In this document: positions 1-34,627 of the stretch, one piece after another
How positions within the stretch are numbered: the first letter of the stretch is position 1
Layout: every line of letters starts with the position of its first letter
Assembly: GCA_016931115.1 (NCBI GenBank)
Contig: JAFGFM010000010.1
Span: 1 to 64,000 of the forward strand
Direction: 5' to 3'
From: Deltaproteobacteria bacterium
GTDB lineage: Bacteria > Desulfobacterota > DSM-4660 > Desulfatiglandales > HGW-15
Length of the DNA stretch: 64,000 nucleotides
The notes under the pieces: generated by a model
What the model saw: the letters and a program-made list of their open reading frames with translations, nothing else
Databases searched by the model: none
Told to the model about the DNA's origin: nothing
Translations under genes and position numbers: made by a program

Positions 1-1
1 C

Positions 2-3854: not shown

Positions 3855-3867
3855 ATTCATTTTTTAA

Positions 3868-4762: not shown

Positions 4763-4954
4763 ATTTTTATCCTGTTCTGTATATGCAAGGATCTTTTTAT
4801 ATTTACAGATTAACCTGTGTAATAAAATTAATCAATTATGTAAATACACTATCAGATTAGTTCATGATTTGTCCACAGGCTTGTGAAATTATTGAGGTAA
4901 AAAGGTGTTATGGTTAAATATACATCGCCGCAAATACGATAGAATATATTTATA

Positions 4955-5154: not shown

Positions 5155-5257
5155 ACATGAAGATGTATTTCATATGTCATCGAATTTATGTTATAAAAAG
5201 TTCTTAGCAAAAATTGAGCTTATCCATGCTGTTACGGATCCGGAATTATGGTTAGAA

Positions 5258-5977
5258 ATGATTCCGGTTATTTTCTTATTAATAATAGATCAGCAAAGGG
5301 GCATAAAACTGGAGACCTTTTCTAAAGAAAAAGAGATAATTACAAAAAGATTAGCCGATTACGGGATAGAACTGACCTCTCATCAGGTTGATTTGCTGGG
5401 AATCTTTCTTGATACACTTATCGAGTGGAACAGGAAGATCAATCTTGTGGGAATCTCCGACAGGATGAGGATTATAGATGAACTGATACTGGATTCTCTT
5501 ATCCCTGTTCCGCATCTACCCAGTGAGGGTAACCTTGTAGATATTGGAAGCGGCGCAGGGTTCCCTGCCATAATAATCAAGATAGCAAGGCCTGAACTTA
5601 AAATCAGATTGATCGAGGCAAATGGTAAAAAGGTAAGCTTTTTAAGGTATATCATACATATGCTCAAGCTAAAGGATATAGAGCCAAATAACAAACGTAT
5701 TGAAAATATTTCAGATGAAATCAGGGAGTGGGGATGTGACATAGCCACATCAAGGGCCATGACAGGCTTGAGCGATGTTATCAGTCTATCCTGCCCTTTT
5801 TTGAAAAATGGGGGTTTTATTGTCGGTTTTCTAGGTAAAAACAGGGGACAAGAGCTTGCTAACGCCAGGGATTTATTAGAGCGATACAATCTTCAGATAT
5901 ATAAAACAGCTAACTACACCCTGCCGGGGAAGGATTCAGAGAGGACAATTGTAGTTTTACAAAAACAGGGGCGCTGA
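5258..5977 (+). CDS. rsmG: 16S rRNA (guanine(527)-N(7))-methyltransferase RsmG (GidB); start uncertain
   Basis: LVDIGSGAGFPAIIIKIARPELKIRLIEANGKKVSFLRYI, DIATSRAMTGLSDVISLSCPFLKNGG; ORF track start at 5033 lies inside the dispersed repeat. Confidence 0.88.
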   Translation: MIPVIFLLIIDQQRGIKLETFSKEKEIITKRLADYGIELTSHQVDLLGIFLDTLIEWNRKINLVGISDRMRIIDELILDSLIPVPHLPSEGNLVDIGSGAGFPAIIIKIARPELKIRLIEANGKKVSFLRYIIHMLKLKDIEPNNKRIENISDEIREWGCDIATSRAMTGLSDVISLSCPFLKNGGFIVGFLGKNRGQELANARDLLERYNLQIYKTANYTLPGKDSERTIVVLQKQGR

Positions 5978-6204
5978 TAATCAGCGTGTATCCAAAAGCG
6001 ATACAGCCTTTTAAACATGCTACTACATGAGGCACAATTATTCTTTCTGAAGTCAGATGATTTTTACCTCTTCTATCATCACATATCTATTCCCCCGGGA
6101 ATTACAGCTTAAAACCTGGAACTTTACATATGATATCAATTATGTAATACCTTATGCAGACTTTAAATTTCTGAATTTTAATAATTTTTCATTCATTATT
6201 TCGT

Positions 6205-8574: not shown

Positions 8575-8591
8575 AAAGATGCGGGTGCCGG

Positions 8592-10070
8592 GTGGAACAT
8601 ATTGCAGTTGATATAGGCGCTTCAGGCGGAAGGCTCTTTTCAGGAAAGGTCATCTCAAATGGATCAGGCCCATACAGGCCCGTGAAAAAAATAGAGATTA
8701 GTGATGTCTACAGGTTTGATAATCGCATTATTGAGAGGGACGGGCAGTCACTCTGGGATATAGACCTCCTGTTTCACCATATTGTCAGGGGATTACATGA
8801 GGCATTTGACAGGGGATGCAAAAGGTGTACTGTAGGTATCGATACATGGGGCGTTGATTATGTGCTTATAGATCAAAGCTGTAACAGGGTATCGGATGTG
8901 TTTTCCTACCGTGACAGCCGCACACGTGCAGCCATGGATGCCTTCTTAAATATAATTCCCAGAGAGGTAATATACAGTAAAACAGGTATCCAGTTCTTAA
9001 GGTTCAACACCATATACCAGCTCTATAGCCATGACCAGGAGGTTTTGAAAAAGACGTGGAAGATCATGCTTATCCCGGATTACCTCTATTTCCTGTTTAC
9101 AGGTAAATGCCATAATGAAGTGACCAATGCCTCTACAACACAGCTTTTAAACCTGGATCAAAGGGATTTTGATGGTGATCTTCTTGCAACACTTGGCATC
9201 GAACGAGGCATGTTTGCAGATCTCATAAAGCCCGGCAGATATATTGGCCCGGTTAAACCGGGGCTCATGCAGAAATACAGCCTGCCCGAATGTGAATTTA
9301 TAACTGTTGCGACACATGATACCGGCTCTGCTGTTCTGGGCACACCATTATCAGGGGATAATTCGGTATATCTGAGCTGCGGCACATGGTCACTTATGGG
9401 TGTGGAGAATAACTCACCTGTTAATAGTAATGATGCGTTAAGACATAATTTTACCAATGAATGGGGGGCATCTGGTACATACAGGTTTTTAAAAAATCTA
9501 ACAGGGCTCTGGCTGGTCCAGGGGATGAAACGCGCTCTTCCCAATGGAATAGGCTATGCTGCTCTCATGAAAATGGCAGGAAATAGCAGGGGCTTTAGTT
9601 TTATAATAAACCCAAATGATGAGAGTTTTATGAACCCTCCTGACATGATAGAGACTATAAAGAAATATTGTAAGGAAACAGGTCAGGGTGCGCCTGATTC
9701 AGAGGCAGAGCTTATAAGATGCATTTTGGACAGCCTCTCTCTTTCATACCGACATACCATCGAGGAGATTGAGCATCTGACAGGGCGGAATATCAGTGTA
9801 ATTAATCTTACAGGAGGAGGCGTAAATAATACCCTCCTGTGCAGGCTGACATCGAATGTCACAGGAAAAAGACTTCTCGCAGGGCCAGTGGAGGCAACGA
9901 TTTTGGGCAACCTGATTATGCAGATGATCGCATCGGGTGAGATAGCGGATATATCAGAGGCAAGGGCCATGATAAAGGAATCCTTTGATCCGGTTGAGTA
10001 TCTCCCTCAAAAGATGGCTGATGCAGATGATGCCTTTAAAAGGTACAAGGAAAACATATTGAGAAGGTGA
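8592..10070 (+). CDS. rhaB: Rhamnulokinase
   Basis: FGGY kinase motifs ([60 protein letters not shown]); directly upstream of rhaA. Confidence 0.93.
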
Positions 10071-10080
10071 TGGTGGCTTT

Positions 10081-11334
10081 ATGGCAGGAGCAGAAATCTA
10101 TAAACATGCAGTAGATATCTATGGCGAGACAGGTGTTGATGTTGAGGCGGCCATCAATACCCTTAAAAGGATCAGTATATCAATCCACTGCTGGCAGGGT
10201 GATGATGTCAGGGGATTTATATCAAAGGGTAGAACCCTTTCGGGCGGGATATCGGTCACAGGCAGTTATCCCGGGGCAGCAGGAAATGGTGATGAGCTCA
10301 GGATGGATATTGAGAGAGCCCTGAGATGTATACCCGGTAAACATAAAGTAAATCTCCATGCCATATATGCTGAGACAGATGGTAGCAGGGATATTGATGA
10401 ACTTGAGCCTGCCCATTTTAAGAACTGGGTAAGCTGGGCATCAGAAAATGGACTTGGGCTTGATTTCAACCCCACCTGTTTTTCACACCCCTTGTCAGAA
10501 GATGGGTTTACCCTGAGCCACCATGACAAAAATATAAGGGCATTCTGGATCATGCACTGCATTGCATCAAGAAAGATCGGTGAGTATCTGGGTAAGACCC
10601 TGAAACAGAGATGCATAGTCAATATATGGATACCTGATGGATACAAGGATATTCCCGCAGATAGACTGTCACCCAGAATAAGGTTAAAAGAGGCGCTCGA
10701 CAGGGTCTTTGATGAAAAGATAGACCCTGCATTTGTTTTAGACACCCTTGAAAGTAAACTATTCGGGATAGGCTCTGAAAGTTATGTTGTGGGATCACAT
10801 GAGTTCTACATGGGGTATGCCCTGAAAAATGGGAAGTCGCTCTGCCTTGATACCGGCCACTTCCACCCGACTGAAACAGTCTCAGGAAAAATATCCGCCA
10901 TCTCTCTTTTTTTTAATGAGATGCTTCTGCATGTGAGCCGCCCGGTTCGGTGGGACAGTGATCATGTCGTTATACTTGATGATGAACTCATGGAGATATC
11001 AAATGAGATCGTAAGAAATGATTTACTGGAGAGGGTTCATCTTGGTCTTGATTATTTTGATGCGAGCATAAACCGTATAGCTGCGTGGGTCATAGGTTCA
11101 CGCAATCTCCTTAAAGGCCTGCTTCATGCCCTTACAATGCCCCATGGCATGTTAAAAAAATTTGAACAGGAAAGGGACTATACGGGAAGGCTTGCCCTTC
11201 TTGAGGAGATAAAGACATACCCATTTGCTTTCATATGGGATCATTACTGTGAGGTGATGGGCGTACCTGTACGCGGTGCATGGTTAAAGGAAATCAGGGA
11301 ATATGAAAACAAGGTTCTGCTGAAAAGAGGCTGA
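10081..11334 (+). CDS. rhaA: L-rhamnose isomerase
   Basis: [75 protein letters not shown]; near-complete colinearity with E. coli RhaA as I recall it. Confidence 0.97.
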
Positions 11335-11372
11335 TGATAAGCCTTCAGTTATGAACCGGTAAGGAGTTTAAA

Positions 11373-12209
11373 ATGAGCAGAGCAAAGGTATATGAAGATT
11401 TTGGTAAATCGGTTTTTATTGAAGAGATGCTTGAGGCAGCAAGGCTCATGTCTGAAAGAGGGTGGGCTGAAAGAAACGCCGGCAATATGAGCTGCATCAT
11501 CCCTGGCTCTGATGCTGCCAGGTATTTTGACCCGGATCAGGTAAAAAGGGCTTTCAAGCTTGATCTCAATATAAAAGAGCTTTCAGGCATGTTCTTTCTT
11601 ATTACGGCTACAGGGTCATACTTTAGAAAGCTTAAAATTGACCCGGCTAAAGGGCTGGGCGTTGTAAGGGTATCACTGGACGGTAACAGGCTTGAGCTTT
11701 TATGGGGTTTTGAAAATGGTGCCGCTCCTACAAGCGAGATGCGCATGCATTTTATGGGGCATATAGTACGCCTTAAAAAAGACCCGAATCACAAGGTGAT
11801 CCTCCATACCCATGCAACCAACACGATAGTAATGTCAATTAATGGCGCCCTTGATGAAAAGGCATTTACACGTGCCCTGTGGCGCATGCATTCTGAGTGT
11901 GTTGTTGTATTTCCTGAAGGTGTTGGCCTTGTCCCGTGGATGGTCCCTGGTACGCAGGAAATAAGCGCTGCAACCGCTCAAAAACTTGAAGATTTCAGGC
12001 TTATTATATGGCCTCTGCATGGCATTATAGGCACAGGCTCTTCAATTGATGAGGCAATGGGGCTTATTGAGACGGTTGAAAAGACCGCTGAAATCTATAT
12101 AAAAAGCATGGGGCTTACTGAATTACCTCAATTTTTAACCGATAAGCAGGTGCTTGATACAGCTGCCCGCTTCGATCTAAAACCTAAGCAGGGGATACTG
12201 GAATTATAG
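11373..12209 (+). CDS. rhaD: Rhamnulose-1-phosphate aldolase (class II aldolase)
   Basis: GWAERNAGNMSCI, SEMRMHFMGH, VILHTHATNTIVMS, WPLHGIIGTGSSIDEAMGLIETVEKTAEIY; third gene of rhaBAD. Confidence 0.95.
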   Translation: MSRAKVYEDFGKSVFIEEMLEAARLMSERGWAERNAGNMSCIIPGSDAARYFDPDQVKRAFKLDLNIKELSGMFFLITATGSYFRKLKIDPAKGLGVVRVSLDGNRLELLWGFENGAAPTSEMRMHFMGHIVRLKKDPNHKVILHTHATNTIVMSINGALDEKAFTRALWRMHSECVVVFPEGVGLVPWMVPGTQEISAATAQKLEDFRLIIWPLHGIIGTGSSIDEAMGLIETVEKTAEIYIKSMGLTELPQFLTDKQVLDTAARFDLKPKQGILEL

Positions 12210-12218
12210 TGTAGAGCC

Positions 12219-14045
12219 TTATTCAGGAGGGGTGTATAGAGGCAGCTTGAGGGTGATCACTGTAATATTTTCTTTGTCTGCACTGATATCTATAAAGCCC
12301 TTTAAGAGCCGTATGATCCTGTGGGTGATATAAAAGCCCCTCCCCTTTGCCTCTCCCTCCAGTAATTGCATGCGTATATCCTCAGGTATGGAGCCTGTGT
12401 TTTTCACCTCAATGCAGGCGTAGCCGTTCTCTTCATATGTCTTTATGCCGAGTCTTCCTCCCTGGATGGGTATTGCCTTTGTCGCATTGTTTAAAAGGTT
12501 GTCAATCACCCTTTCAAGAAACAGGGGGTAGCAGTAGATTACAAGGTTCTCATTAAAAGGCCCCTGCTCTAGGGTGATATTCTGTCTGAGCTTTTCCCTT
12601 ATAACCTCCTCGTTTATTTCGAACCTGCGTTTCAGTACCTGTGTGACATTCACCGGCTGTTCTTTACCCACATGGGAGAGACTCATTGCCATCTCCTGCA
12701 TTCGGCTTGTCTCTTCCATCAGTATCTGGACATATTTTGTTATCCTGCTTTCATCTTCCGGGGCGCACTCTTTTTCAAGCAGGCTGTGGAGCCTTCTTGC
12801 AAAACCGGCAGTGGCAATGGCAGGGTTTTTAAAATCATGCAGTATATCGTCGAGACGCTCCATCCTCTGCGCCTTCATCAGCTCCCTTCCAAGAAAAAGG
12901 AATATCTCTATCTCCTCCGGGCTGTACCCCCTTCTCTGGTCAACCGCGTCCACGGTAATAAAATGTGTTACAAAATCGCCTGACCTCATTGGGATATAGA
13001 GGATAGAGTTGATGTTCCTGAGTGATGAAAGACTCTTTGTATTTGGCGATACCAGGCTGCTCCTCTGAGGGTCTGTGACAAGCACATAGGATGATGTAAT
13101 TATTTCATAGGGGGTATCATTTTCAGGATATTTAAGGCCCAGTACCACCTCAAAGGAGGGCTCACTCTCAACAGGGAAGCTCTTGCCTATGCCGTGTAAT
13201 GATAATGAGTCAGGATACCCTGCCTCAAGTACTACATTTTTCATATCATCTGTTACTGAAAAGAGGGCACAGCTCTGAAGGTTGATGATATCTGCAAGTT
13301 CAGGGATCAGCCGGTTAAAGATATCCTTCATCTTGACCCCTTCCAGTTTCCCCATCCTTGTAAATATCTGTTTAAGGATGGTCTCTTTCTTTTCATTCAT
13401 CCTCTGCATGGTAAGTATCTTTTTTCGTGCAATAACAAACCCGAGCCTCTGGGACATGAGTGTTGCCACCTGCGCCTCCAGTGGCGCAAAGATGCGCTCT
13501 TTCTGGGCATAGTAGATCTGGATCACCCCTGTGGTATTTCTTTCGTGTGGGAAGAACCTTGGTATCTCAAAGGGGATTGCCATAAGGGAATTTACCCCTT
13601 TCCTTTCAACAATGGTCTTGTCTGTATAAAGCTTTTCCCTGAGTATGTCAGATACAATAAATGGTTTCCCGGTGGTTATTGCCCTGCCTGCCACGCTGCC
13701 TTCAATCGTTATCTGGCTTGGTCTTGTCTCCTCTTCAGAGGGGTATGAACCATATGAAAGCATCTGGGATGTGCCAGGGTCATATATCCTCACAGATGCC
13801 ATGACCGCATTAAGCGATTCAACGAGCCTTTTTGCAATAAGTTCAAGTATCTCCCTTTCTGACTGACCCGGGTCAATCATTATGATGGAGTCTACAAGAT
13901 TGGTGATCTTTTTTATGAAATCGGGAAGGAGATTTTTAGCGATCCATTCGGTCAGATTAACCCAGAAAAGGTCACCCTCCGGGACCGCCTTAGCCCAGGC
14001 CTGTTTTTTAATCAGCTCTATGTGGCTTTCTGAGATGCCAAACAT
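12219..14045 (-). CDS. GAF-domain sensor histidine kinase
   Basis: GAF-like segments, DHp-like DDILHDFKNPAIATAGFARRL, HATPase NLLNNATKAI. Confidence 0.85.
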   Translation of the reverse strand: MFGISESHIELIKKQAWAKAVPEGDLFWVNLTEWIAKNLLPDFIKKITNLVDSIIMIDPGQSEREILELIAKRLVESLNAVMASVRIYDPGTSQMLSYGSYPSEEETRPSQITIEGSVAGRAITTGKPFIVSDILREKLYTDKTIVERKGVNSLMAIPFEIPRFFPHERNTTGVIQIYYAQKERIFAPLEAQVATLMSQRLGFVIARKKILTMQRMNEKKETILKQIFTRMGKLEGVKMKDIFNRLIPELADIINLQSCALFSVTDDMKNVVLEAGYPDSLSLHGIGKSFPVESEPSFEVVLGLKYPENDTPYEIITSSYVLVTDPQRSSLVSPNTKSLSSLRNINSILYIPMRSGDFVTHFITVDAVDQRRGYSPEEIEIFLFLGRELMKAQRMERLDDILHDFKNPAIATAGFARRLHSLLEKECAPEDESRITKYVQILMEETSRMQEMAMSLSHVGKEQPVNVTQVLKRRFEINEEVIREKLRQNITLEQGPFNENLVIYCYPLFLERVIDNLLNNATKAIPIQGGRLGIKTYEENGYACIEVKNTGSIPEDIRMQLLEGEAKGRGFYITHRIIRLLKGFIDISADKENITVITLKLPLYTPPE

Positions 14046-14083
14046 ATTATGCGCCCCGGTGAGTGTTTTATAATAAATGCATT

Positions 14084-15394
14084 TTATCTTTCCAGGTCAA
14101 TAATGCCCTTATAGATAATATCAAAAAGTTCTTTGATATCTTCCTTTTCCAAACATGAAAATGCTATTCTCAGATCGGTCTTGCCGATGGATATTGTCCC
14201 GACACCGTATTTATCCAGTATATGAACCCTGAGCACCTCAGCGTCAACGGTCTTGAGTTTCAGGCACATGAAGTACCCGGAGTTAAATGGATAAACGTCC
14301 CAGACTTTATCATATTTTTTATCGGAAAGCACTTTTTTAACTTCATTTGCCCTTTCTTTCATGATCCCGAATTTAACTTCGCTTTCCCTGCCAAAGGTTT
14401 CCGAGGCAAGGGATTTTGCAACTATTGTCTGACTCAGGTGCGAGACATTGGATATATTCCCCCTCACATCCCCTGCGGTCTTTCTTTCAAGGGCGTCATA
14501 AAAGAGGACAGTGTCCCCATCTATGGTAGCCCCGTATGTGATAAAACCCACCCTCAGGCCCCATACAAATATCTCCTTTGTTGCCCCGTCAAGCTTGATG
14601 GTAAAAAGCCTCGGGTGTCTCCCGATCAGGTGGCTGAAGATCGATTCCTTCATGACATTGTCTTCAAAAAAGAGGCCGAAATAGGCATCATCAGTTACAG
14701 CTACTACATTTGTGCCCTTTTCTGCTGCTTCAGTCAGTATATCCGATATCTTTATACCCTCTTCATTTGTTATGCTGTAGCCAGTCGGATTATTAGGGAA
14801 GTTAAGCAGTACCATGAGCTTTTTTGCAGTTTTTGCCTGTTCCTCAATGCATTTTTTAAGCCCCTCAGTATTAAACCCTCCCTCGCTGTTAAAGAGGGGG
14901 TATTTAATTATTTTCCCGCCGTTTCTTGTCTCAAAGATCATGCTGTAATTGCCCCAGTTTTTATCCGGGATAATGATTATATCATCTTTATCAACCCACA
15001 TGTCTGCAACAACAGAGAGGCCATGGGTGATTGCATTTGTAACAACAGGAAGGCTGATCTTTTTATCCCTTAGAGGCGGGTTTTTATCAAGGATGTAATC
15101 CTTCCATGCCTTTCTCAGGCCTGCTGTTCCATAAGAGGGGGCATAGGTAAGGGATTCTTCAGGGCTGATGTTGCCTATAATCGACATTACTGATGAGAGG
15201 TACATGGTCTTACCCTTTTCAGTTGCCATGCCAATGGTTGCATTATATTTATGCGCCTTTGCCTTTGCCTCTGCGCTTTGTGTAAGTATCCCTTTCGGGA
15301 AATAGAGAGATTTACCAACATTCGAAAGCATATCAAATATATGCGGATTAGCCTTTTGAATAATTTCATTCAGTTCAATTGCGAGCGGATTCAT
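14084..15394 (-). CDS. PLP-dependent aminotransferase class I/II
   Basis: YAPSYGTAGLRKAWKDYI, LLNFPNNPTGYSI, TDDAYFGLFFED, LDGATKEIFVWGLRVGFITYG. Confidence 0.9.
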   Translation of the reverse strand: MNPLAIELNEIIQKANPHIFDMLSNVGKSLYFPKGILTQSAEAKAKAHKYNATIGMATEKGKTMYLSSVMSIIGNISPEESLTYAPSYGTAGLRKAWKDYILDKNPPLRDKKISLPVVTNAITHGLSVVADMWVDKDDIIIIPDKNWGNYSMIFETRNGGKIIKYPLFNSEGGFNTEGLKKCIEEQAKTAKKLMVLLNFPNNPTGYSITNEEGIKISDILTEAAEKGTNVVAVTDDAYFGLFFEDNVMKESIFSHLIGRHPRLFTIKLDGATKEIFVWGLRVGFITYGATIDGDTVLFYDALERKTAGDVRGNISNVSHLSQTIVAKSLASETFGRESEVKFGIMKERANEVKKVLSDKKYDKVWDVYPFNSGYFMCLKLKTVDAEVLRVHILDKYGVGTISIGKTDLRIAFSCLEKEDIKELFDIIYKGIIDLER

Positions 15395-15683
15395 ATTTTA
15401 CTCCAATAAATTAGTATAACAACAGGTGCTGTAAGAAGACCTTTAACGCCTAACTAGCCGGTGTATAATGAAAATGTCAAGAAAATTCATTTGGTTATTC
15501 GGGACTGAAATAACTTGACTTGGAAATGTACATCTTTATATATTCACACGTAACCTTAACCCTGCCTGTGCGGGTTAAATCAGGGGCATATTTTATATTG
15601 TAAATACAGAAGGTTCAAGAATAGATTTGGTAAAAATTTCATACCATTCTTTTTTTTATCACTAACCACATAAGGAGCTAAAA

Positions 15684-25261: not shown

Positions 25262-25338
25262 GCGCCCGTAGCTCAGTTGGATAGAGCAATGGACTTCTAA
25301 TCCATAGGTCGGGGGTTCGAATCTTCCCGGGCGCGCCA
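25262..25338 (+). tRNA. tRNA-Arg(TCT)
   Basis: 77 nt cloverleaf GCGCCCGTAGCTCAGTTGGATAGAGCAATGGACTTCTAATCCATAGGTCGGGGGTTCGAATCTTCCCGGGCGCGCCA; acceptor GCGCCCG/CGGGCGC; anticodon TCT; encoded CCA. Confidence 0.97.
25291..25338 (+). repeat. attL: 48-bp direct repeat inside tRNA-Arg
   Basis: GGACTTCTAATCCATAGGTCGGGGGTTCGAATCTTCCCGGGCGCGCCA, identical to 34580-34627. Confidence 0.95.
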
Positions 25339-25346
25339 GTAAAGAC

Positions 25347-25384
25347 AAGGGTTTCAGCGTTTTGCTTGAACCCTTATTTTTTTG
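25347..25384 (+). terminator. Rho-independent terminator-like hairpin after the tRNA, inside the element
   Basis: AAGGGTT-tcagcgttttgcttg-AACCCTT followed by ATTTTTTT. Confidence 0.6.
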
Positions 25385-25457
25385 ACTGCTACCCTATTGA
25401 TACCCACCAGAAAAATGTACTCATACATAAAAAAGTTTGGAATTGGTTTTAATAGCT

Positions 25458-26174
25458 TTAGGCTTGTCCATATTTTTCTTTTGATATTTCCCTGACTCTT
25501 TTCATAATGCCAAAGGATATACCCTTGAAATAGTCTTTGTTATCTTTTTTTTCTTCTTTGATAAACTCCAATGACTCACTTTTAATTTTTAAAAGAAAAA
25601 ATATTGTTTCATTTTTGATTTGCTCGACTATTTCGATTTCTTCTCGATTATTTAAAGCTTGTGTATTCATGTCATTAATATAATAGTTAAAACTATTCCA
25701 AAGTATCTCTTTATCCTTTTTTAGTGCAAAATCATATCCATCTTTGTAACCAGTGTCTTCATCTACAGAGGCTTGATAATTTATGTCTTTTATAAGTTTA
25801 TCAAAATTGCCATTGCCCCACTTTCTCAACCAGTCATTCGCTTCTTTTTCCCATAACCAGCTTTCGCCCTTCCCAGCGAAATAATGCGCTATTTCATGAG
25901 CAATACAATAAAATAAAAATTCATCAACGATTACCCCCTTTCTTACTGCTTCAATTTTTATTGTTTTATAGTTTAAATAGATAATTGATTTAACAGGTTT
26001 ACTGAAAGTAAATTTCGAACCACATTCGATTTCATCGGAACAAACTACCTGTAACGTTCCATTTCCCACATCGCTTAGAAATTCTTCTTTTTTATCAGGT
26101 AACAGTTTTAACACTTCTTCAATATATGAAAATAGTTTATTTCCGCAATACTCAAATCGTTTTAATCTGTCCAT
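25458..26174 (-). CDS. Cargo protein with HExxH zinc-metallopeptidase-like (ImmA/IrrE-like) core
   Basis: FYCIAHEIAHYFAGKGESWLWEKEANDWLRKWG: HExxH plus downstream ExEAN. Confidence 0.6.
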   Translation of the reverse strand: MDRLKRFEYCGNKLFSYIEEVLKLLPDKKEEFLSDVGNGTLQVVCSDEIECGSKFTFSKPVKSIIYLNYKTIKIEAVRKGVIVDEFLFYCIAHEIAHYFAGKGESWLWEKEANDWLRKWGNGNFDKLIKDINYQASVDEDTGYKDGYDFALKKDKEILWNSFNYYINDMNTQALNNREEIEIVEQIKNETIFFLLKIKSESLEFIKEEKKDNKDYFKGISFGIMKRVREISKEKYGQA

Positions 26175-26299
26175 TTATACAACCCCGCTCTTTAAAAGGT
26201 TATTGGATTCGATTCGTATGAATACTATTTTATTATATTATTCTGCGATTGCTGTAAAGATATGATGATAATTAACAATATCACAGAATATGAAAAGGT

Positions 26300-26521
26300 T
26301 TAATTTGTAGGTATATTCTTAAAAATCAATTCTCGTAAAGCTGAAGGCTCATAGCCAAGGGATTCCGCTATCATATCAAATACAGGATTTTCTTTGTCCT
26401 TTATCCATTTATAGGCAGAGTACGTGTACTCATTATATTTTATATCTCTGATTGCTTGAAGCAAAACAGCCAACCATAAAGACATTTCAGGGCTTAATTG
26501 TTTAACGTGTACTGTTAGCAA
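26300..26521 (-). CDS. Small hypothetical phage/satellite protein
   Basis: 73-aa ORF in element with no competing ORF; composition similar to small phage regulators (weak). Confidence 0.4.
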   Translation of the reverse strand: MLTVHVKQLSPEMSLWLAVLLQAIRDIKYNEYTYSAYKWIKDKENPVFDMIAESLGYEPSALRELIFKNIPTN

Positions 26522-26861
26522 GGGTTTAGCTGTCCTTTGTATGTTGTAAAGTCAATGATATGTTGCCCTTCCTGAAATAAAAACCGCTGTAAATCGATAT
26601 TTAAGTCCTGTATTTGAAACTAACTTATTGAGATAACCAAGGGACGCTGTCACACGTCCCCAGGTCATATACTGACTGCCCTTTTTCCCATGATGCATGA
26701 GAGGATAGCATCAATCAGGCAGTAGGCCAAATCAAGGATTCAATAAAAATCCCCTTTGGCTGCTATGGTTTTTAAGGAGATTGTCGGCACTACATAGCTA
26801 ATCCGGGCTTGTTCTGGAAGGACTTTGAGACTTCCACGGTAAAGCCAAACCGTAAAAACAG

Positions 26862-28355
26862 TTAAACCCCAAGCGTCACGAATGGTGAAACCCTTGTTAC
26901 TCCATCTTCCAGGGTAAGAGGCGCATCCCATAAAGGCTGTCCGTCGTGTCGCTCAATAAGCCTTGCCGTTGTCTCATCATTCTTGAATCCAACATGAATT
27001 GACTTGTCAAATCTCATTCCAGACCGCAGGCCAACACAATACTGGCTGAAATCAGCAAGCAGAATATCGCCACGGCTTCCGGCAGTTTCCATTTTCTCAG
27101 AGAAAATGACCGGCCTCGTCATAATTGTGAATTGACCCGCTGTCTCCTGTAAGACTCGAATATGTGCGCCACCAGTGCCAATTTCGATCACCAGTTGAAG
27201 CAGGGCAGGAACTAAAGAAGGATGAACCACCCAGACCGATTTTAAGAATGAAGCAGGGTGAATACTGCCAACCATTTTTGCAAGGTTCGCATACTGCACA
27301 GGGTCTGTTGCTCTAGTCTGGCCGATTTCAGGTTCAACCTCAATCGTGCAATCAGCATTGAGGATACCCAAAGGCATACCCGCACCAGTTCCCCGGAGAA
27401 ATGCCCGATCCCTATACCAAGCCAGACCTTTACCGCATATCTGAATAATCTGATCTTCACCACCAACTATATCCTCGCAAAGTTCATTTGAAAACTGAAG
27501 TAGGCCAGTAAGTTTTTCCGCCGCAAGTACCAGGGCTCTGACTTTCGGGTTTGCCTGATCAAGTTCTGCAAGCTCAGATTTATAGTACGCACGGAAGCCA
27601 CCGAATAAGGATACAGCATGATTTCCGATTTGCATTGCAGGTATAGTTATCTCATTGGATTTCATCGGCTGCACAAAGGCCCGAGGCATAACGATTTCAT
27701 TCTCAAGTGATACTGAATGAATCATCGATGCTGTTTCAGAGAGAACCGCAAAACCGCCATCACCAGGCACACCCTCGGACATAGAATCCTGTATTTTTAA
27801 GCCAGGATGATGCCTGCCAGAAATCACCGCCTGAAAGAAGGAAATATCCTTATCCTGCCAATCAACACTCTTACCAAAAAGGCTGTCATAGGTTTTTAAA
27901 TCTGAAGGCCCTCTCAGCGCAAGGGGTTTAATGTTTTTCTTTTTGCTGAGAATTGCATAATCCGCCTCAGAACCATTGAGGCCCCTTGTTTCCATCATTG
28001 AAAGTGCCCTTTCAAGAGCGTCAATCTGATCCTGCATCGGGTGCAGTTTATTGTCTATCTTGTCTTTTAGTTCGCCTATTGTGTTTTTTATAAGTTCCAT
28101 ATCCATAATATTTTCTCCATCGCAGTTATTTAACTGCAAAAAATGTTTACAGTTTTCTCCCGAACTTTTGCCGATGCAATTCTTGTTCAGCATCTCACTG
28201 AACTTTGAATTTTTTCGCTGATCTTTTGTGTTTTTAATCGTGCCAACATCCCGCAGGCATAATCTCCGGCCCTCATCAATCAACTTGAACCCTGCTGCAT
28301 CCCGCAGCATGGCCCGTGCATTTATAAAACTTTTAATTGTGGGCTTCACTTTCAC
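26862..28355 (-). CDS. HK97-family phage major capsid protein (likely start at 28106; open to 28355)
   Basis: Coiled-coil delta-like N-terminus MELIKNTIGELKDKIDNKLHPMQDQIDALERAL, then capsid-like body (GDGGFAVLSETASMIHSVSLENEIVMPRAFVQPM..., AFLRGTGAGMPLGIL, ILLADFSQYCVGLRSGMRFDKS). Confidence 0.88.
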   Translation of the reverse strand: MKVKPTIKSFINARAMLRDAAGFKLIDEGRRLCLRDVGTIKNTKDQRKNSKFSEMLNKNCIGKSSGENCKHFLQLNNCDGENIMDMELIKNTIGELKDKIDNKLHPMQDQIDALERALSMMETRGLNGSEADYAILSKKKNIKPLALRGPSDLKTYDSLFGKSVDWQDKDISFFQAVISGRHHPGLKIQDSMSEGVPGDGGFAVLSETASMIHSVSLENEIVMPRAFVQPMKSNEITIPAMQIGNHAVSLFGGFRAYYKSELAELDQANPKVRALVLAAEKLTGLLQFSNELCEDIVGGEDQIIQICGKGLAWYRDRAFLRGTGAGMPLGILNADCTIEVEPEIGQTRATDPVQYANLAKMVGSIHPASFLKSVWVVHPSLVPALLQLVIEIGTGGAHIRVLQETAGQFTIMTRPVIFSEKMETAGSRGDILLADFSQYCVGLRSGMRFDKSIHVGFKNDETTARLIERHDGQPLWDAPLTLEDGVTRVSPFVTLGV

Positions 28356-28620
28356 CCCTAAATTCTTTGTTTTTTTCTATAAATTCCCTGTGTATTTTTG
28401 CGCTTTTCATCAAGCTTTCTAAGCCCTCCGGCATTGTTGCATCTGGATGAAGTTCTATCCAAGCTTCCCAGTATTCATCAAGATGCGCCGCATATGGGAA
28501 ACTGTACGCATGAAAAGTAAACTTAATCTCCCCGGCAAACCATTTTTTTATCCACGGATTAATAGCAACTGATCCGGCTTTAGGCTTTCTGTTTCGATAT
28601 ACCTTTTTACTTAGTGTCAT
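28333..28620 (-). CDS. Hypothetical element protein
   Basis: 95-aa ORF between TerS and capsid, tightly packed. Confidence 0.5.
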   Translation of the reverse strand: MTLSKKVYRNRKPKAGSVAINPWIKKWFAGEIKFTFHAYSFPYAAHLDEYWEAWIELHPDATMPEGLESLMKSAKIHREFIEKNKEFRGESEAHN

Positions 28621-28621
28621 T

Positions 28622-28906
28622 TTAGATTGCTCCAGGGTTTAAGTTTAATGCCTTCAATGCGCTAATGACCTGCTGTCTTGAATCTCGCTCAATCGCACAT
28701 GCAGGATGCGCCTTTTTTTGTCCGAATCTATCACTTAAAACCAGCCCCTCTTTTTTAAGTATCTTTCTTGCCTGTTGGCATCGCTCCCAGGATTCAGCCG
28801 CTGTTAGTAAGAGGGCTTTTCCTGCCTCATCATCAATGCTGTAGTCCATCGCTATCTTTTGATAAAACTTTTTGCCTTCAGCTTTTAGATGTTTTGGTAT
28901 ATCCAT
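28622..28906 (-). CDS. P27-family phage terminase small subunit
   Basis: MDIPKHLKAEGKKFYQKIAMDYSIDDEAGKALLLTAAESWERCQQARKILKKEGLVLSDRFGQKKAHPACAIERDSRQQ is typical of P27 TerS. Confidence 0.88.
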   Translation of the reverse strand: MDIPKHLKAEGKKFYQKIAMDYSIDDEAGKALLLTAAESWERCQQARKILKKEGLVLSDRFGQKKAHPACAIERDSRQQVISALKALNLNPGAI

Positions 28907-29104
28907 TTAAAGCACCTCAAAATATTTTCTGGAAATTTCCGACATTCTCTGTGAATGGGGAATCCCGCGGTTTCTAAAAAGTAAATAGTTGTAGACATTT
29001 GATAGACGCCCTATGTATCTGTTATTATTAAATAATATAATGGTACTATTCAATGGTACTAACCCCGGTCTCAATATATCGGACACACGTTTTAATGTAG
29101 CCAC
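28907..29104 (-). CDS. Small hypothetical element protein
   Basis: 65-aa ORF contiguous with TerS. Confidence 0.3.
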   Translation of the reverse strand: MATLKRVSDILRPGLVPLNSTIILFNNNRYIGRLSNVYNYLLFRNRGIPHSQRMSEISRKYFEVL

Positions 29105-29152
29105 CCGGTTAATTAAAATCTTTTCGGTTTTAAGATTTTATGCCTCCGTGTC

Positions 29153-29386
29153 TCATTGCTTCACCATGTTCATTGATGCCATTGCCTCTAAAGCTCTAGC
29201 AAAGATTTCATCTGCAACCTGTTTCATTTCCTCTATTGCCCCTGCATCTCCACGGCTCATCAATGCTGCAACATTCGCTGATAAGTTTATCATTGTGATA
29301 CTGCACTGCTTGAGCAATGGTTCCATGCTATCAACTGCCTGTTTTAATTGCTCCATGTTTGCATTAACTCTTTCCTGTGTTCCCAT
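29153..29386 (-). CDS. Small helical hypothetical element protein
   Basis: ORF abutting the next gene (29386/29387). Confidence 0.5.
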   Translation of the reverse strand: MGTQERVNANMEQLKQAVDSMEPLLKQCSITMINLSANVAALMSRGDAGAIEEMKQVADEIFARALEAMASMNMVKQ

Positions 29387-29584
29387 TTAGTCCTCACTTT
29401 CCTGAAAGTTCATGCTGTTTACAAGTTGCCTTTGTCTTTGGTCAATGATGCCACTGATTGCCTTGACCAGTATAGTGAAGGACTGGCAGTCACTTTCCCT
29501 GATATATAATCCCAGCTTATTATCAAGCTGCATCAAGCAATCTGCATTCTCTGCCCATACTTTCTTCTGTGTTTCCTTTTCCAT
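29387..29584 (-). CDS. Small hypothetical element protein
   Basis: 65-aa ORF, 1-nt overlap with 29584 gene. Confidence 0.5.
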   Translation of the reverse strand: MEKETQKKVWAENADCLMQLDNKLGLYIRESDCQSFTILVKAISGIIDQRQRQLVNSMNFQESED

Positions 29585-29955
29585 TAGTGATATACAACCG
29601 CCCTTTTAATCATCAGTGATAACCATGCTTCCCGCCATTGACTTAATAAATCCCTGAATGCTGCAAGGTCTCCCTGATTAGCCGCCAGGGTGAATTGCTC
29701 CTCAAGCTCCAAGGTTCTATGTGTGAATCCTTCAGGGATAACCTTCATTTCATAATTACTTGATAGCTTTTCATTGAACTCGAAAATTGTTCTGTCTATT
29801 TCTCTATCAAAGGAATTTTCTGGAATATGCCTACTATGGGCACTGACAAAACTGTCATAAGTATCTTTTGGCAGTTCTGTCAGTTGATCATGTATAGTGT
29901 TTTTGTCTTTTTTATCGCCTTTCAGCATTTCCAAGTATTTCATTTTTGCCCCCAT
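29584..29955 (-). CDS. Hypothetical element protein
   Basis: 123-aa ORF overlapping the 3' end of the replication protein gene, suggesting translational coupling. Confidence 0.5.
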   Translation of the reverse strand: MGAKMKYLEMLKGDKKDKNTIHDQLTELPKDTYDSFVSAHSRHIPENSFDREIDRTIFEFNEKLSSNYEMKVIPEGFTHRTLELEEQFTLAANQGDLAAFRDLLSQWREAWLSLMIKRAVVYH

Positions 29956-32300
29956 ACTATTGGATGAACCTCATATTCCTCTGAAGGTCTGCCACCTGTA
30001 TTCTTTATTTTTTTAGTAAGATATCCAAAGTCCTGAAGTGTTTTTATACCTGCCTTAATATCTTCAATGTCTGATAACCCTGACCATTGAGGTCTTAAAA
30101 TTTGCCTTGTTGTGATAGGTTCCTTAAGACTTCTATTTTTAATCTTGTTTAGAATCCTCTTTGCTGTTTCAACTTCAGGGGCTGTGATACTTCCATATAC
30201 TCGCTTAGCATGTGTTTCTAAATATTCAGACCATGCAAGGGCCATTAAGACAGATTCTTTTCCTACAGGGCCAGTATAACCGTTTGATACATGGGTTATC
30301 AGCGCAATCCCAGGGACTAACTTTCGATACTTTGCTAAATGGGATTCAAGGGCAGGATGTAATTCACCACTTCTTAACTTTGTTTCAAGGTCTTGCCTCC
30401 ATTCTCTGAAAAGCCCTAATCCTTCTTGATCAAATCTTAAATATGGAGTTCCTTCTAACTTCCCATTAAAATCTCTGTCCTGCATGGCATTTTTTTCTGA
30501 AAACACCATACTTGATGTCCTGACAAAACTGTCAAAAGCCATCCGTTTAGCTTCATTGTCCGGCCATCGGTCAACTTCTTTCCATGTTGCGGATGAATCA
30601 GGCCAGATAATTAAATTAAATCTCTGTAACAGTCCATCGTCACTATCACCACCGCTTAGAGTCCCTTTAACATACTGAGATATCCTTCCGGGTTGTGTAC
30701 TACCAAGCATTGATAGACAGACTGCTGGGATATATAAATTCATGCCTCTTGAAATTCGATCAAAAATATATGGTGAATCACCATTCCAACTAGTGAGGTA
30801 AAAGCCCCGTGCTTCACTGTTTTCTGGCTGATCAAGCATTTTTAAAAGGCTGAGAAGCTCATCTCTAAAAACAAGTAAACCATTAGGATTCTGTCTGTGC
30901 AGCTCTCCCAATGCTGCCGCTGTAGTATCATTGACCATATATCTTTTTAATATTGGAGGATCTTCTTGTTGTGAGTTTAACAAGTGTGAAACATCAGCAT
31001 TTGGATTGTCCTTTAATACTGACCGCGCTGCCTTTTCTCCGGCCTCTGCCCTTAATTTATTGATAATCACTGTGTTTTCATATTCCTTACTCTCACGGCT
31101 ATACATTTCCATTGCTTCCGCTGAAAGTCTTTTCAGTGGTGCCAGTGCCGCTTCCATTGCAGGGCTTTTTATAACTCCGGGCCGTCCTATTAATAACCCC
31201 CACATATTAGGGTAAACAGTCCAATCAGTATTTGCCTGTGGTCTGATACCTACTTTCCGCCCGATAATTGACCCAAGCGCAACCATTACCGACACTGCCA
31301 CATATTCAGGGGGGCATTGCATCCTGTCAACAATATCACTTACCCACGGCCTTAAAACTTCAGGCATAAGTGCCATATCGAATGAAGCTACTGGGTGTAG
31401 GCCATCAGGAAGGGGCAAAGGTTCGGGCCATTCATCCTCAACTTTTATTTGTTCCGGCTCCCTTGCACCCTCAAGACACACTTTAACCGTTCCAAGTCCT
31501 TCGGTTTGGTGCAAGTCATTAAAGTCTTTACCCCTGCCTGTTGTAAATAGAGGAAATGCCACCTTTGCACCGATTGACCTCGCTGCCGCTTCTGCTGCTA
31601 TTCTGCCAGTGTTTTTGCCTGTCTTTAAAGCCTTTTCATGATCATCATCACCGGCAATAATTATTTCAGCATTAGGATATTTATCTCTGACTATGTGCGC
31701 CACTGCTTCGAGATTGCCTGCCGAAAAAGTAACAAATACAATTGCCCCTGTAGCCTCATGAACTGATAAGGCTGTTGCTATGCCTTCGGCAATATAGGGC
31801 TTCCCTTCATTCCCCGGAATGATAAAAAAACCGCCCTGCATCCCGCCATCTTTAAAATTATACTTACCACCATCAGGATAAATTCGCTGGTAACTTTGGA
31901 TACCAGCGGTTCCAGATACAGGCACTATCAGAACATTGCCATCGGCCTTTAATCCAGGGCAGGGCTTAACTCCCTTTCGCTTGAGATAAGGATTATCAGG
32001 GCTTGCATCTAGCAGGGATTCGCAAAATTGTTTTGCTTCTATAGTTTTTTGCTTATGCAGTTCAGTTTCAGCATTGATGCGCCTCTGACGGGCTTCTGGT
32101 GTTTCAGTGCCAAAGGTCTTTTTAAGGTCTGTGCGCCGCCAATCACCAAAGGAAGCAGTTTTGCCATCGTGCTTGTACCAACCGGCTTTGTCACCCGGTT
32201 TATCAGAGGTGGAAAATCTATGAAATTTCCCATCTGTGATAATCTCTGGAGGTTGATAACCTTCTTTCCGAATTTCATTTTGCAATTGTATTGCGTCCAA
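29940..32300 (-). CDS. TOPRIM + DUF3987 primase/helicase-like replication protein
   Basis: DGKFHRFSTSDKPGDKAGWYKHDGKTASFGDWR, YIAEGIATALSVHEATG, EIIIAGDDDHEKALKTGKNTGRIAAEAAA (TOPRIM), GLLIGRPGVIKSPAMEAALAPLKRL (DUF3987). Confidence 0.9.
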   Translation of the reverse strand: MDAIQLQNEIRKEGYQPPEIITDGKFHRFSTSDKPGDKAGWYKHDGKTASFGDWRRTDLKKTFGTETPEARQRRINAETELHKQKTIEAKQFCESLLDASPDNPYLKRKGVKPCPGLKADGNVLIVPVSGTAGIQSYQRIYPDGGKYNFKDGGMQGGFFIIPGNEGKPYIAEGIATALSVHEATGAIVFVTFSAGNLEAVAHIVRDKYPNAEIIIAGDDDHEKALKTGKNTGRIAAEAAARSIGAKVAFPLFTTGRGKDFNDLHQTEGLGTVKVCLEGAREPEQIKVEDEWPEPLPLPDGLHPVASFDMALMPEVLRPWVSDIVDRMQCPPEYVAVSVMVALGSIIGRKVGIRPQANTDWTVYPNMWGLLIGRPGVIKSPAMEAALAPLKRLSAEAMEMYSRESKEYENTVIINKLRAEAGEKAARSVLKDNPNADVSHLLNSQQEDPPILKRYMVNDTTAAALGELHRQNPNGLLVFRDELLSLLKMLDQPENSEARGFYLTSWNGDSPYIFDRISRGMNLYIPAVCLSMLGSTQPGRISQYVKGTLSGGDSDDGLLQRFNLIIWPDSSATWKEVDRWPDNEAKRMAFDSFVRTSSMVFSEKNAMQDRDFNGKLEGTPYLRFDQEGLGLFREWRQDLETKLRSGELHPALESHLAKYRKLVPGIALITHVSNGYTGPVGKESVLMALAWSEYLETHAKRVYGSITAPEVETAKRILNKIKNRSLKEPITTRQILRPQWSGLSDIEDIKAGIKTLQDFGYLTKKIKNTGGRPSEEYEVHPIVWGQK

Positions 32301-32314
32301 AATTATGCCCCTTA

Positions 32315-32518
32315 TTATGCTACGCTATCCAGTGTTTGAACCGGATTCCTGAAAAGGTACTCTTCAATATCCGATGCCTTGTAAACTATCTTTCTTGATA
32401 CCTTAAAAAATCTAGGCCCTTTTTTAAGGACTCGCCAATTTGCAAGTGTGCCCTCTGACAAAGTCAATGCTGGATAATTTTCAATTACGTCTTTTGGTGT
32501 TAATATTTTGTTTACCAT
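32315..32518 (-). CDS. AlpA/excisionase-like helix-turn-helix protein
   Basis: LTPKDVIENYPALTLSEGTLANWRVLKKGPRFFKVSRKIVYKASDIEEYL. Confidence 0.8.
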   Translation of the reverse strand: MVNKILTPKDVIENYPALTLSEGTLANWRVLKKGPRFFKVSRKIVYKASDIEEYLFRNPVQTLDSVA

Positions 32519-32639
32519 CTCATATCCCCCGTGATTATTAATTTAGGGATATGATAAATCGTGATAAAAATGATTACAAGTTATTGATTTTTCAGGAAAT
32601 ATGGTAATTCATGAAAAGAGGTAGGATATTGAATAAAAA

Positions 32640-33239
32640 TTATTCCGATGCTTTTATGCGCTTTATCTCTTTTAAAATTTCAATTGCTTCACTCATATCA
32701 TCCGCGGTGCCTGCTACACCAATTCTAGGGAGTCCATCAAGACCATATTCTACAGCATCAGATTCTATTAACTGTTTTGCAATGGCATGCCAGCGTTTTT
32801 GTTGTTTCTTAACAATCCGCCGTACAGTTGATTTACTTTTTCCACATATTTTTGCAACATCTTCAAAGGCGTAATCTTCAGCATCAGGGCTGTAATACTC
32901 ATTCTGAATCACATCCAGGGCAAGTAATCGGTCTGCACAGTTTGTTTGATATTCTGTAAAAGGAGAGCCTTGCCCCCGATCATCTTTGTTTAATTTTAAT
33001 GCCTTCGCAAGAGCAACCGGCCTATCTTTTGGCTTTGGCGGGTTTTGGGCAATTTTAACTATTTCTTTTGCAACATCCGCAAGATATTCGACGATTGCAC
33101 CCGGCACAGTAGTTTTAAACCTGATTGCTGTTAAAAATGTTTCCCATGCGTCCAAAGGATTTTTATTTTCTTTATAGCGGGCAAGTATCTTTTCCACATA
33201 ATACATGGATTCTGGTTTTTTATTATGGGCTATTATCAT
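32640..33239 (-). CDS. Hypothetical HTH-containing element protein
   Basis: AFEDVAKICGKSKSTVRRIVKKQQKRWHAIAKQL helix-turn-helix-like. Confidence 0.55.
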   Translation of the reverse strand: MIIAHNKKPESMYYVEKILARYKENKNPLDAWETFLTAIRFKTTVPGAIVEYLADVAKEIVKIAQNPPKPKDRPVALAKALKLNKDDRGQGSPFTEYQTNCADRLLALDVIQNEYYSPDAEDYAFEDVAKICGKSKSTVRRIVKKQQKRWHAIAKQLIESDAVEYGLDGLPRIGVAGTADDMSEAIEILKEIKRIKASE

Positions 33240-33244
33240 TTTAT

Positions 33245-34396
33245 TTACTCCTTGATCTTTTTTACTTTTTTGCTTTTTTTATTAAAAGCCTCTTCAAGCC
33301 TTGCAGTGGCGGCTCTCTTATGGTCAGGGATAAGGTGTGCATAGCGTTCTGTCATAACCGTGGATTTGTGCCCTAATAGTTCTTTCATAGTTGGCAAGCT
33401 TTCTCCCTGTATAGCAAGCCATGACGCAAAGGTGTGTCTGAAAGTATAAAAAGTTACCATTTGCCGCCGGTCTGTCACCCCATCATTAAAGCCAAGCTCT
33501 TTTATAATTCGGAAAAAACTTTTGCTTATATTTACAATTTTATTTCCGTTTCGATCTGGAAATACAAGGTCTTCTGGTTTTTCAGGTATACGCTCCTGAA
33601 GCATTACCTTTACAGCTCCGGTCATATATGCGTGTCTTGTCGTTTTGTTTTTTGGGTCTGTAATTCTGATAATACCGTTTTGCATGTCTATATCATTTTT
33701 TTTGAGACTGAAAATTTCGTTTGATCTCAAGCCACAATGTAGGGCTAACAGTGAAATATCATGAAGGTCAAGGGTCTGCATAGACTTTAATCTTTCCAGC
33801 AATATGTGTGCCTCTTCATGGCTAAAAAATCGTGTTCTACGGTTCTGTAAAATTGGCATCTTAACACCTTTTACTGGATTACCTCCCTGATAAATGCCCC
33901 ATGATAAAGCTTTATTATAAACCTGCCTGATTATCACTAGACAATGTTTAACCGTTGCAGGTGCAAGCCCTTCTTTAAAAAGCTCCGATTTCATCCTTTC
34001 AAGGTCAAAGGCTGTAATATCATTCATGCGCTTATCTTCAAATCTGGGTTTAATATGATGATTATATCTGCTGATATCACCTGACACCCCTTTATTAACT
34101 TCGGCCCATGTTTTATATTTTTCCCAGGCGTCTTTTAAAAAAGGAGCTTTTTTCTTTTGTTTTGGAAGGTCAATACCATGTCTTGCTGATCGGATACGTT
34201 CGGCCCTGATATCGTTTGCAAGTTTTTCAGAATAGCCCTCAGACACCCATCCGGCTTTTTCCCAAATCTTTTTCCCTTCCAATTTATACGTAATATCAAA
34301 ACAGATATCAGGCTTTCCATTAAGCATCTTTTCTGTTGAAATACGCTTATACACTCCCGGATATTTTGTCCTTTCTCTTACTGCCATTTTGACCAC
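33245..34396 (-). CDS. int: Tyrosine recombinase / phage integrase
   Basis: ALHCGLRSNEIFSLKKNDIDMQ, FYTFRHTFASWLAIQGESLPTMKELLGHKSTVMTERYAHL (R..HxxR..Y). Confidence 0.95.
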   Translation of the reverse strand: MVKMAVRERTKYPGVYKRISTEKMLNGKPDICFDITYKLEGKKIWEKAGWVSEGYSEKLANDIRAERIRSARHGIDLPKQKKKAPFLKDAWEKYKTWAEVNKGVSGDISRYNHHIKPRFEDKRMNDITAFDLERMKSELFKEGLAPATVKHCLVIIRQVYNKALSWGIYQGGNPVKGVKMPILQNRRTRFFSHEEAHILLERLKSMQTLDLHDISLLALHCGLRSNEIFSLKKNDIDMQNGIIRITDPKNKTTRHAYMTGAVKVMLQERIPEKPEDLVFPDRNGNKIVNISKSFFRIIKELGFNDGVTDRRQMVTFYTFRHTFASWLAIQGESLPTMKELLGHKSTVMTERYAHLIPDHKRAATARLEEAFNKKSKKVKKIKE

Positions 34397-34579
34397 CTTT
34401 CTATATCTTTTAAATGTTTCCGTAAGTCAGTAGTGCTACCCTATTGCTACCCTTGAAAATTAAATCTAATTATTTAGCATGATGTAAAATGCTACCTAAT
34501 AAGGGTATAAGTATCTTAATTATTAAAATAAATTATGTCAAGTGATTTTTAGTGAAGTGAGTCAAGATAGATAGGAAAC

Positions 34580-34627
34580 GGACTTCTAATCCATAGGTCG
34601 GGGGTTCGAATCTTCCCGGGCGCGCCA
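34580..34627 (+). repeat. attR: 48-bp tRNA-Arg 3'-end duplication
   Basis: Perfect copy of 25291-25338. Confidence 0.95.

Follow-up and report, generated by a model that had tools for sequence, protein, structure and literature searches.

Capsid-forming PICIs (cf-PICIs) are satellites that encode TerS, TerL, HNH, major capsid protein (MCP), protease, portal and connectors all by themselves (PMC10690885). A far smaller investment is made by SaPIbov5, whose Ccm protein, a single satellite-encoded MCP homologue, redirects the shell of the helper; the delta domain of Ccm is cleaved, and SaPIbov5 has no identified protease of its own (PMC8569155). The PICMIs of Vibrionaceae are built on a core of integrase, AlpA-type HTH and DUF3987 primase, are inserted at fis and lack both TerS and MCP (PMC10803314), while putative satellites of Escherichia coli carry an MCP and a tape measure without terminase, protease or adaptors (PMC10448857). 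VEIMEs and tycheposons, as they are cited in PMC10803314 and PMC11389934, are environmental elements proposed to be satellites, many of them packaged.

Here we describe an island in a 64,000-nucleotide stretch of DNA from a member of the Desulfobacterota (the window), which we read, with a probability of about 0.86, as an integrated and probably mobile phage satellite that supplies a shell protein and a packaging-specificity subunit of its own, leaving everything else to a helper. Site-specific integration with an integrase and att repeats, together with the lack of an autonomous virion gene set, would place it among integrated satellites in the broad sense. It also unites in one island the canonical PICI set of integrase, AlpA-type regulator (a sub-cut-off match), replication gene and packaging/interference module. 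Canonical PICIs encode no structural protein of the virion other than redirectors of the capsid; the island has an MCP, which might act either as such a redirector or as the shell. With cf-PICIs it shares an MCP and TerS of its own, an integrase, an AlpA-like gene and an MCP fold matching EcCI2 (PDB 9gyi); it differs in having no TerL, HNH, protease or portal (PMC10690885). Because these four are absent, an element that on its gene content seems to work like a cf-PICI is not a member of that family as published. An earlier note on this DNA had recognized PICI or cf-PICI logic, of which the helper-dependent satellite holds good (exact boundaries, empty site, gene content, relatives) and the cf-PICI does not, by definition.

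We regard SaPIbov5 Ccm, which that note overlooked, as the closest mechanistic precedent: in each system the single MCP homologue has the HK97 fold and a delta-like region at its N terminus, and no protease belonging to the satellite has been identified (PMC8569155). The likeness is one of fold and gene content, the window element residing in another host phylum and carrying a TerS. The PICMI combination of integrase, AlpA-type HTH (HTH_17, sub-threshold) and DUF3987/DUF5906 primase is likewise present, but in tRNA-Arg rather than fis and with TerS and MCP added. The E. coli elements resemble it by gene content alone, as MCP-bearing islands, and differ in lacking alpA and terminase genes; a tape-measure gene also occurs in three relatives of the window element (L040, L097 and L098). 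The likeness to VEIMEs and tycheposons is one of description only, as environmental proposed satellites.

The integrated element and its genes

The inserted unit occupies 25339-34627 (9,289 bp) between 51-nt direct repeats derived from the 3' end of tRNA-Arg(tct) (Table 1). In a same-genus genome (G001, locus L261) the two flanks join without the element exactly at 25338|34628, the left one matching up to 25338 (90.6% over 2,247 bp) and the right one beginning to match within the att core (87.9% over 5,326 bp). The element is therefore a real insertion. The tRNA-Arg target named in the earlier note is thus borne out by the ARAGORN call and by this empty site in a related genome; its 48-bp repeats exist too, but fall inside the longer 51-nt core. 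It was also right to place the host outside the Enterobacteria and Firmicutes, the phylum being shared with Deltaproteobacteria/Thermodesulfobacteriota genomes. The motif of a candidate integrase arm-type site recurs at 34434, 34445 and 34490, and 4 of the 11 copies of TGCTACC in the 64 kb (both strands) lie near the element ends. No packaging site was found for the element.

Table 1. Features of the element and its insertion site (window coordinates)
Feature	Position	Strand	Basis or remark
tRNA-Arg(tct), integration target, stays intact; last 51 nt form the attL core	25262..25338	+	ARAGORN and repeats
att core, left copy, 51 nt	25288..25338	.	repeat comparison; empty site in L261
Candidate integrase arm-type site TGCTACCCTATTGATACCC	25387..25405	.	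19-nt repeat; putative role
Cargo ORF, 238 aa, HExxH-type motif	25458..26174	-	ORF; no family match
Small ORF, 73 aa	26300..26521	-	L103 and L030 have weak relatives close to satellite MCP genes
Major capsid protein, HK97 fold, 414 aa from likely start	26862..28106 (frame open to 28355)	-	PF05065 2e-32, phrog_10
95-aa ORF between TerS and MCP	28333..28620	-	ORF call
P27-type terminase small subunit, short, 94 aa	28622..28906	-	PF05119 8e-8, phrog_83 2e-9
Small ORF, 77 aa	29153..29386	-	ORF call
Small ORF, 65 aa	29387..29584	-	ORF call
123-aa ORF	29584..29955	-	comes after the replication gene of related elements
Toprim + DUF3987 primase/helicase, 786 aa, TTG start	29940..32300	-	Pfam/PHROGs
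AlpA-like HTH, probable excisionase/activator	32315..32518	-	HTH_17 0.0036, phrog_66 0.024
199-aa HTH protein	32640..33239	-	weak HTH matches
Tyrosine integrase, 383 aa	33245..34396	-	PF00589 9e-25
att core, right copy, 50/51 identical (98%) to left copy	34577..34627	.	repeat comparison; L261

All credible genes lie on the minus strand, in the order integrase, HTH, AlpA-like, Toprim/DUF3987, small ORFs, TerS, 95-aa ORF, MCP and cargo, and the gene order and strand bias described in the earlier note are confirmed. What that note called cargo is a single ORF with an HExxH motif, for which Pfam, PHROGs and PADLOC gave no family, and PADLOC recognized no defence system in the cargo or the small ORFs. 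The integrase is 52% identical to that of L025, whose alpA-like gene matches the AlpA-like HTH at 47% over 47 aa; the HTH_17 match of the latter is below the family cut-off. The replication protein (Toprim_3 2e-13, DUF3987 6e-81) is 54% identical over 509 aa to its counterpart in L032, and relatives of the 123-aa ORF adjoin the primase in L034 (3e-30) and L033 (3e-7). No Pfam or PHROGs family was assigned to the 95-aa ORF, nor did it have a relative among the loci compared; sub-threshold Pfam and PHROGs names on small ORFs were regarded as noise.

Translation of the MCP probably starts at the ATG at 28106, behind a GGAG motif, which gives 414 aa, rather than at the GTG at 28355 (497 aa). An AlphaFold2 model (pLDDT 82) matches HK97-fold capsids, EcCI2 included, and predicts a complete subunit with an N-terminal helical region resembling a delta domain. 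TerS, which has relatives in other satellites, lacks the basic N-terminal segment of the sampled phage P27 TerS proteins, and because it is also short, its DNA recognition may differ from theirs.

Absent virion genes and the helper

Pfam, PHROGs and local profiles revealed neither a TerL, portal or protease gene nor one for a connector or tail in the element; the earlier note had likewise identified no large terminase, portal, protease or tail gene. Pfam and PHROGs were read down to E=1 (PHROGs for all but the 199-aa HTH protein and the integrase), and local TerL, portal, protease and tail profiles were run against all six frames (ORFs of at least 25 aa). The best TerL and portal scores were below 1 bit, and the small ORFs gave nothing credible for portal or protease. 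HNH was tested and is absent; head-tail connectors, which are small and divergent, gave no profile match, and several small ORFs have no assignment. The only faint tail score, 13 bits for a tape-measure profile on a helical 77-aa ORF (29156-29386), was not taken as a tail gene. From an MCP and a TerS standing without other head, motor or tail genes we infer the need of a helper phage, from which the missing functions are almost certainly borrowed. No resident helper was found in genomes G000 or G001, and since both lack a PF04860 portal and a PF03354 TerL, a helper, if any, would come from outside, have been lost or have a different type of head.

A satellite lineage of capsid proteins

Searching viral_contigs with the single MCP protein returned no relative, and a class-level capsid search only a distant prophage capsid (L039); relatives were then found with alignments A1 and A2 as queries. 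The nearest MCPs, L040 (62%, tblastn), L041 and L181 (57% each), L042 (52%), L097 (51%) and L182 (49%), all sit in small elements in which neither TerL nor portal could be detected. They belong to other genera and phyla, and several are islands with att repeats of their own; most relatives are metagenome assemblies, some on incomplete contigs. Five such elements are complete by their att repeats, namely the window element, L040 (9,679 bp, tRNA-Lys), L043 (9,133 bp, tRNA-Val), L098 (8,685 bp, tRNA-Ala) and L182 (6,641 bp, tRNA-Pro), and the L097 contig, about 8.5 kb long, appears to be circular. The same replicon type, with another TerS and no detected MCP, recurs in two loci, L032 and L036, the latter an element of this class that measures 9.1 kb and sits in tRNA-His. 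The element has relatives of matching architecture, and the nearest of them, which might have shown a full set of structural genes, lack it too.

In the MCP tree one branch parts 18 satellite from 32 phage MCPs (support 100/100, 200/200 bootstrap trees), and a wider tree of 106 rows recovers a 19-row set (SH-aLRT 97), so that these MCPs form a satellite-only lineage, strongly different from the sampled phage MCPs. Five cf-PICI-like islands (L026, L044, L113, L117 and L135) belong to the clade, their MCPs forming one tight subclade nested among the mini-satellites. L135, an HNH-TerL-MCP-portal contig with no integrase, had been labeled a phage; the label was dropped because L135 falls within that subclade. 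Four further mini-satellites (L029, L030, L083 and L085) fall outside the clade, which would reflect separate acquisitions of phage MCPs or, for the long branches, poor placement.

Within the satellite model, the composition of the shell can be weighed against this tree. The protein might, like Ccm, replace helper subunits at the pentons of a small mixed shell; the precedent of a satellite that lacks a protease and has one MCP homologue, whose delta domain is cleaved (PMC8569155), suits an element with one MCP gene and neither portal nor protease. However, L026, L044 and L113 use this MCP type as sole shell protein beside their own portal, TerL and protease, the clade is strongly unlike the sampled phage MCPs, and Ccm is made beside a helper capsid protein that it must fit, whereas no helper MCP is known here. 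Because the same-lineage islands pair this sole shell gene with their own portal and protease, we think that a shell wholly of satellite MCP is probable and a mixed one rather unlikely.

A question of ancestry, compatible with the satellite reading, is whether the element is a cf-PICI that lost all but TerS and MCP from an HNH-TerS-TerL-protease/MCP-portal set. The shared clade would agree with such a loss, as would L182, which retains a protease-MCP fusion and TerS with no TerL or portal detected; but since the cf-PICI-like subclade is nested among mini-satellites, it is no less likely that this subclade gained TerL and portal, and we consider reduction a doubtful account. It is very improbable that the island is a domesticated defence locus whose MCP and TerS spoil incoming phages rather than serve its own transfer: capsid-remodelling satellites can lower helper yield (PMC12409344) and the cargo has no family match, but the island has kept its att sites along with the integrase, AlpA-like and replication genes, and PADLOC finds no system. 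Least credible of all is a decayed HK97-like prophage stripped of TerL, portal, protease and tail, for although TerS and MCP belong to the late genes of phages and the 13-bit tape-measure score a sole possible trace, open ORFs stand in order between exact att sites with a known empty site, the TerL-portal-protease-MCP-tail module or its remains is missing from element and close relatives alike, the closest MCP relatives in other genera and phyla all sit in similarly reduced islands without TerL or portal, and the replicon type recurs in TerS-bearing islands without detected MCP.

Proposed life cycle and implications

For a helper-dependent satellite, we would expect the following course after integration. 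Infection by a helper, or its induction, would trigger the AlpA-like and HTH regulators, and the integrase, with the AlpA-like factor, would excise a circle through the 51-bp att sites for replication by the Toprim/DUF3987 protein. Satellite TerS would direct helper TerL to package satellite DNA, and satellite MCP would form the whole shell, or only its pentons as Ccm does in SaPIbov5. The shell would start on a helper portal, be matured by a helper protease and be closed by helper connectors and tail. Possibly, and we put this forward tentatively, the element represents a widespread, undescribed satellite group with its own MCP lineage that seizes helper head assembly through TerS and MCP alone, in some members with a tape-measure protein for tail length, and yields chimeric virions in which a satellite shell sits on a foreign portal and is matured by a foreign protease.

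Known satellites remodel the helper shell or encode a whole head; the window element and its relatives, with a single gene for the shell and another for packaging choice, would stand in between. Their phylogeny supplies natural intermediates (MCP alone, TerS with MCP, TerS with protease/MCP, and full head), by which one may ask what number of parts allows a satellite to take over a head and whether its shell can form on a foreign portal. On this reading, the known range of capsid-bearing satellites would also take in uncultured Desulfobacterota, Ignavibacteriota and Acidobacteriota, among other groups.

Element and integration site

The earlier note had proposed a PICI-like satellite in tRNA-Arg with its own capsid and small terminase (TerS) genes, and the element is borne out. 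A repeat search showed that the last 51 nt of tRNA-Arg(tct) recur as a direct repeat at the far end of the element (50/51 identical). G001, a genome of the same genus, has the empty site: its two flanks, 90.6% and 87.9% identical to those of the window, are contiguous across one intact tRNA-Arg (L261). Of 11 TGCTACC motifs in 64 kb, four lie just within the element, one at its left end and three at its right; these copies, placed as expected for arm-type sites of a tyrosine integrase, are candidates for that role.

Every credible gene lies on the minus strand, from right to left: integrase, a 199-aa HTH protein, an AlpA-like HTH (a weak match, under the Pfam cut-off), a Toprim/DUF3987 replication protein, three small ORFs, TerS, a 95-aa ORF, the major capsid protein (MCP), a 73-aa ORF and a 238-aa HExxH ORF. 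AlphaFold2 modelled the MCP confidently as an HK97 fold (pLDDT 82): residues 2-41 form a long helix at the N terminus, followed by a low-confidence stretch and the shell domain. Foldseek matched the model to HK97-fold capsids, including that of the E. coli cf-PICI EcCI2 (9gyi). As in the note, no gene for a large terminase (TerL), portal, protease or tail was identified, nor any connector gene, in profile searches of the ORFs (Pfam and PHROGs, with matches as weak as E = 1 considered) and of all six frames (local profiles).

Coordinates of features in the window and in loci (L numbers) fetched from other genomes
Locus	Feature	Coordinates
Window	tRNA-Arg(tct)	25262-25338
Window	Direct repeats	25288-25338, 34577-34627
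Window	Inserted unit, 9,289 bp	25339-34627
Window	Likely MCP start, preceded by GGAG	28106
Window	TerS	28622-28906
L042	TerS	8265-8576
L090	TerS	4246-4566
L088	TerS	3865-4203
L075	TerS	4025-4384
L040	Tape-measure gene	11212-13236
L097	Tape-measure gene	3029-4591
L098	Tape-measure gene	2842-4755
L090	MCP split between two frames, through gene breakage or an assembly error	5886-7344
L182	Smallest capsid-bearing satellite in this analysis	46-6734
L183	Apparent tandem copies	1-9764
L184	Apparent tandem copies	1-12329
L036	9.1-kb island at tRNA-His	6313-15536

Relatives and capsid phylogeny

Searches with capsid alignments yielded 137 loci, then 64 further, annotated by profiles whose seeds came from the satellites and from four phages with annotation. 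Three arrangements emerged: phages with TerL-portal-protease-MCP; islands resembling capsid-forming PICIs (cf-PICIs), with HNH-(TerS)-TerL-protease/MCP fusion-portal and an integrase, such as L026 (48-nt repeats in tRNA-Arg, spaced 10.35 kb) and L044, which adjoins tRNA-Lys; and mini-satellites with integrase and MCP, most of which have TerS immediately before the MCP gene or separated from it by one or two small genes, in the position of phage TerL-portal-protease. The window element and all its nearest relatives (L040, 62% MCP identity; L041 and L181, 57%; L042, 52%; L097, 51%; L182, 49%) are mini-satellites in which no TerL or portal was detected. Among the mini-satellites, locus annotation recognised no integrase in L097 and no TerS in L040, L041 and L043.

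Other complete mini-satellites, bounded by att repeats, occupy tRNA-Lys (L040, 9,679 bp), tRNA-Val (L043, 9,133 bp), tRNA-Ala (L098, 8,685 bp) and tRNA-Pro (L182, 6,641 bp), and the L097 contig terminates in a 134-nt direct repeat, as for a circular molecule of ~8.5 kb. Their replication genes vary (Toprim/DUF3987, CHC2 + AAA_25, D5_N/DUF5906, DUF3854/DUF3631, BT4734-like + AAA_25). The three tape-measure genes (520-674 aa) suggest that tail length is controlled as well as the head. L183 and L184 carry ~90% identical repeats ~7.5 kb apart with satellite-clade MCPs, and look like tandem satellite copies.

In a 106-row MCP tree, 12 mini-satellites, five cf-PICI-like islands, L183 and L135 form one set (SH-aLRT 97). 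A 50-row tree, with the longest branches left out, separated 18 satellite MCPs from 32 phage MCPs (20 nearest by BLAST, 12 random) with support 100/100 and in 200/200 bootstrap trees; given midpoint rooting, the satellite MCPs are, exactly, one side of a branch. L029, L030, L083 and L085 fall outside the main clade; L029 (=L075) and L030 (=L088) are different TerS-MCP islands of one genome (G433). Within the satellite set, the MCPs of cf-PICI-like islands group tightly together, surrounded by those of mini-satellites, which fits either loss of TerL and portal by mini-satellites or their gain by the cf-PICI-like subclade. L182, with TerS, integrase and a head-protease/MCP fusion and neither TerL nor portal detected in locus annotation, is a possible intermediate.

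Apparent module exchange

For the replication gene, L032 has a counterpart at 54% identity and L036 a related one; both are same-class islands with other TerS families and no MCP detected, and L036 has 119-nt repeats, a Toprim/DUF3987 primase, an AlpA-like gene and a phrog_309 TerS. The closest integrase is that of L025 (52%), and the nearest matches to the short TerS are in L030, L029 and L042, two of the three with MCPs outside the clade. Satellites thus appear to swap modules for TerS, MCP, replication and integration with one another, which argues against a decayed prophage. Most phage P27 TerS sampled begin with a GRKPxPTxLKxLEGNPGKR-like N-terminal segment that is missing from the five tabulated satellite TerS proteins (94-120 aa).

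Novelty, helper and mechanism

Satellites that have an MCP but lack terminase and protease are on record for E. coli (PMC10448857), and since these and single-MCP redirectors are known, the element is a variant, not a new category. No description of the satellite MCP lineage across phyla, or of the recurrent TerS-MCP arrangement, was found in the literature compared (VEIME, tycheposon and original cf-PICI reports lay outside it).

A search for a resident helper found neither PF04860 portal nor PF03354 TerL in G000 and G001, implying an external helper or one with another head type. There are two direct precedents: the SaPIbov5 MCP homologue Ccm occupies the pentons of its helper's shell (PMC8569155), and cf-PICIs build the entire head (PMC10690885). 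The gene set of the window element lies between the two. We favour a mechanism in which the satellite MCP would be the sole shell protein, assembled on helper portal and protease, while the satellite TerS would steer helper TerL.
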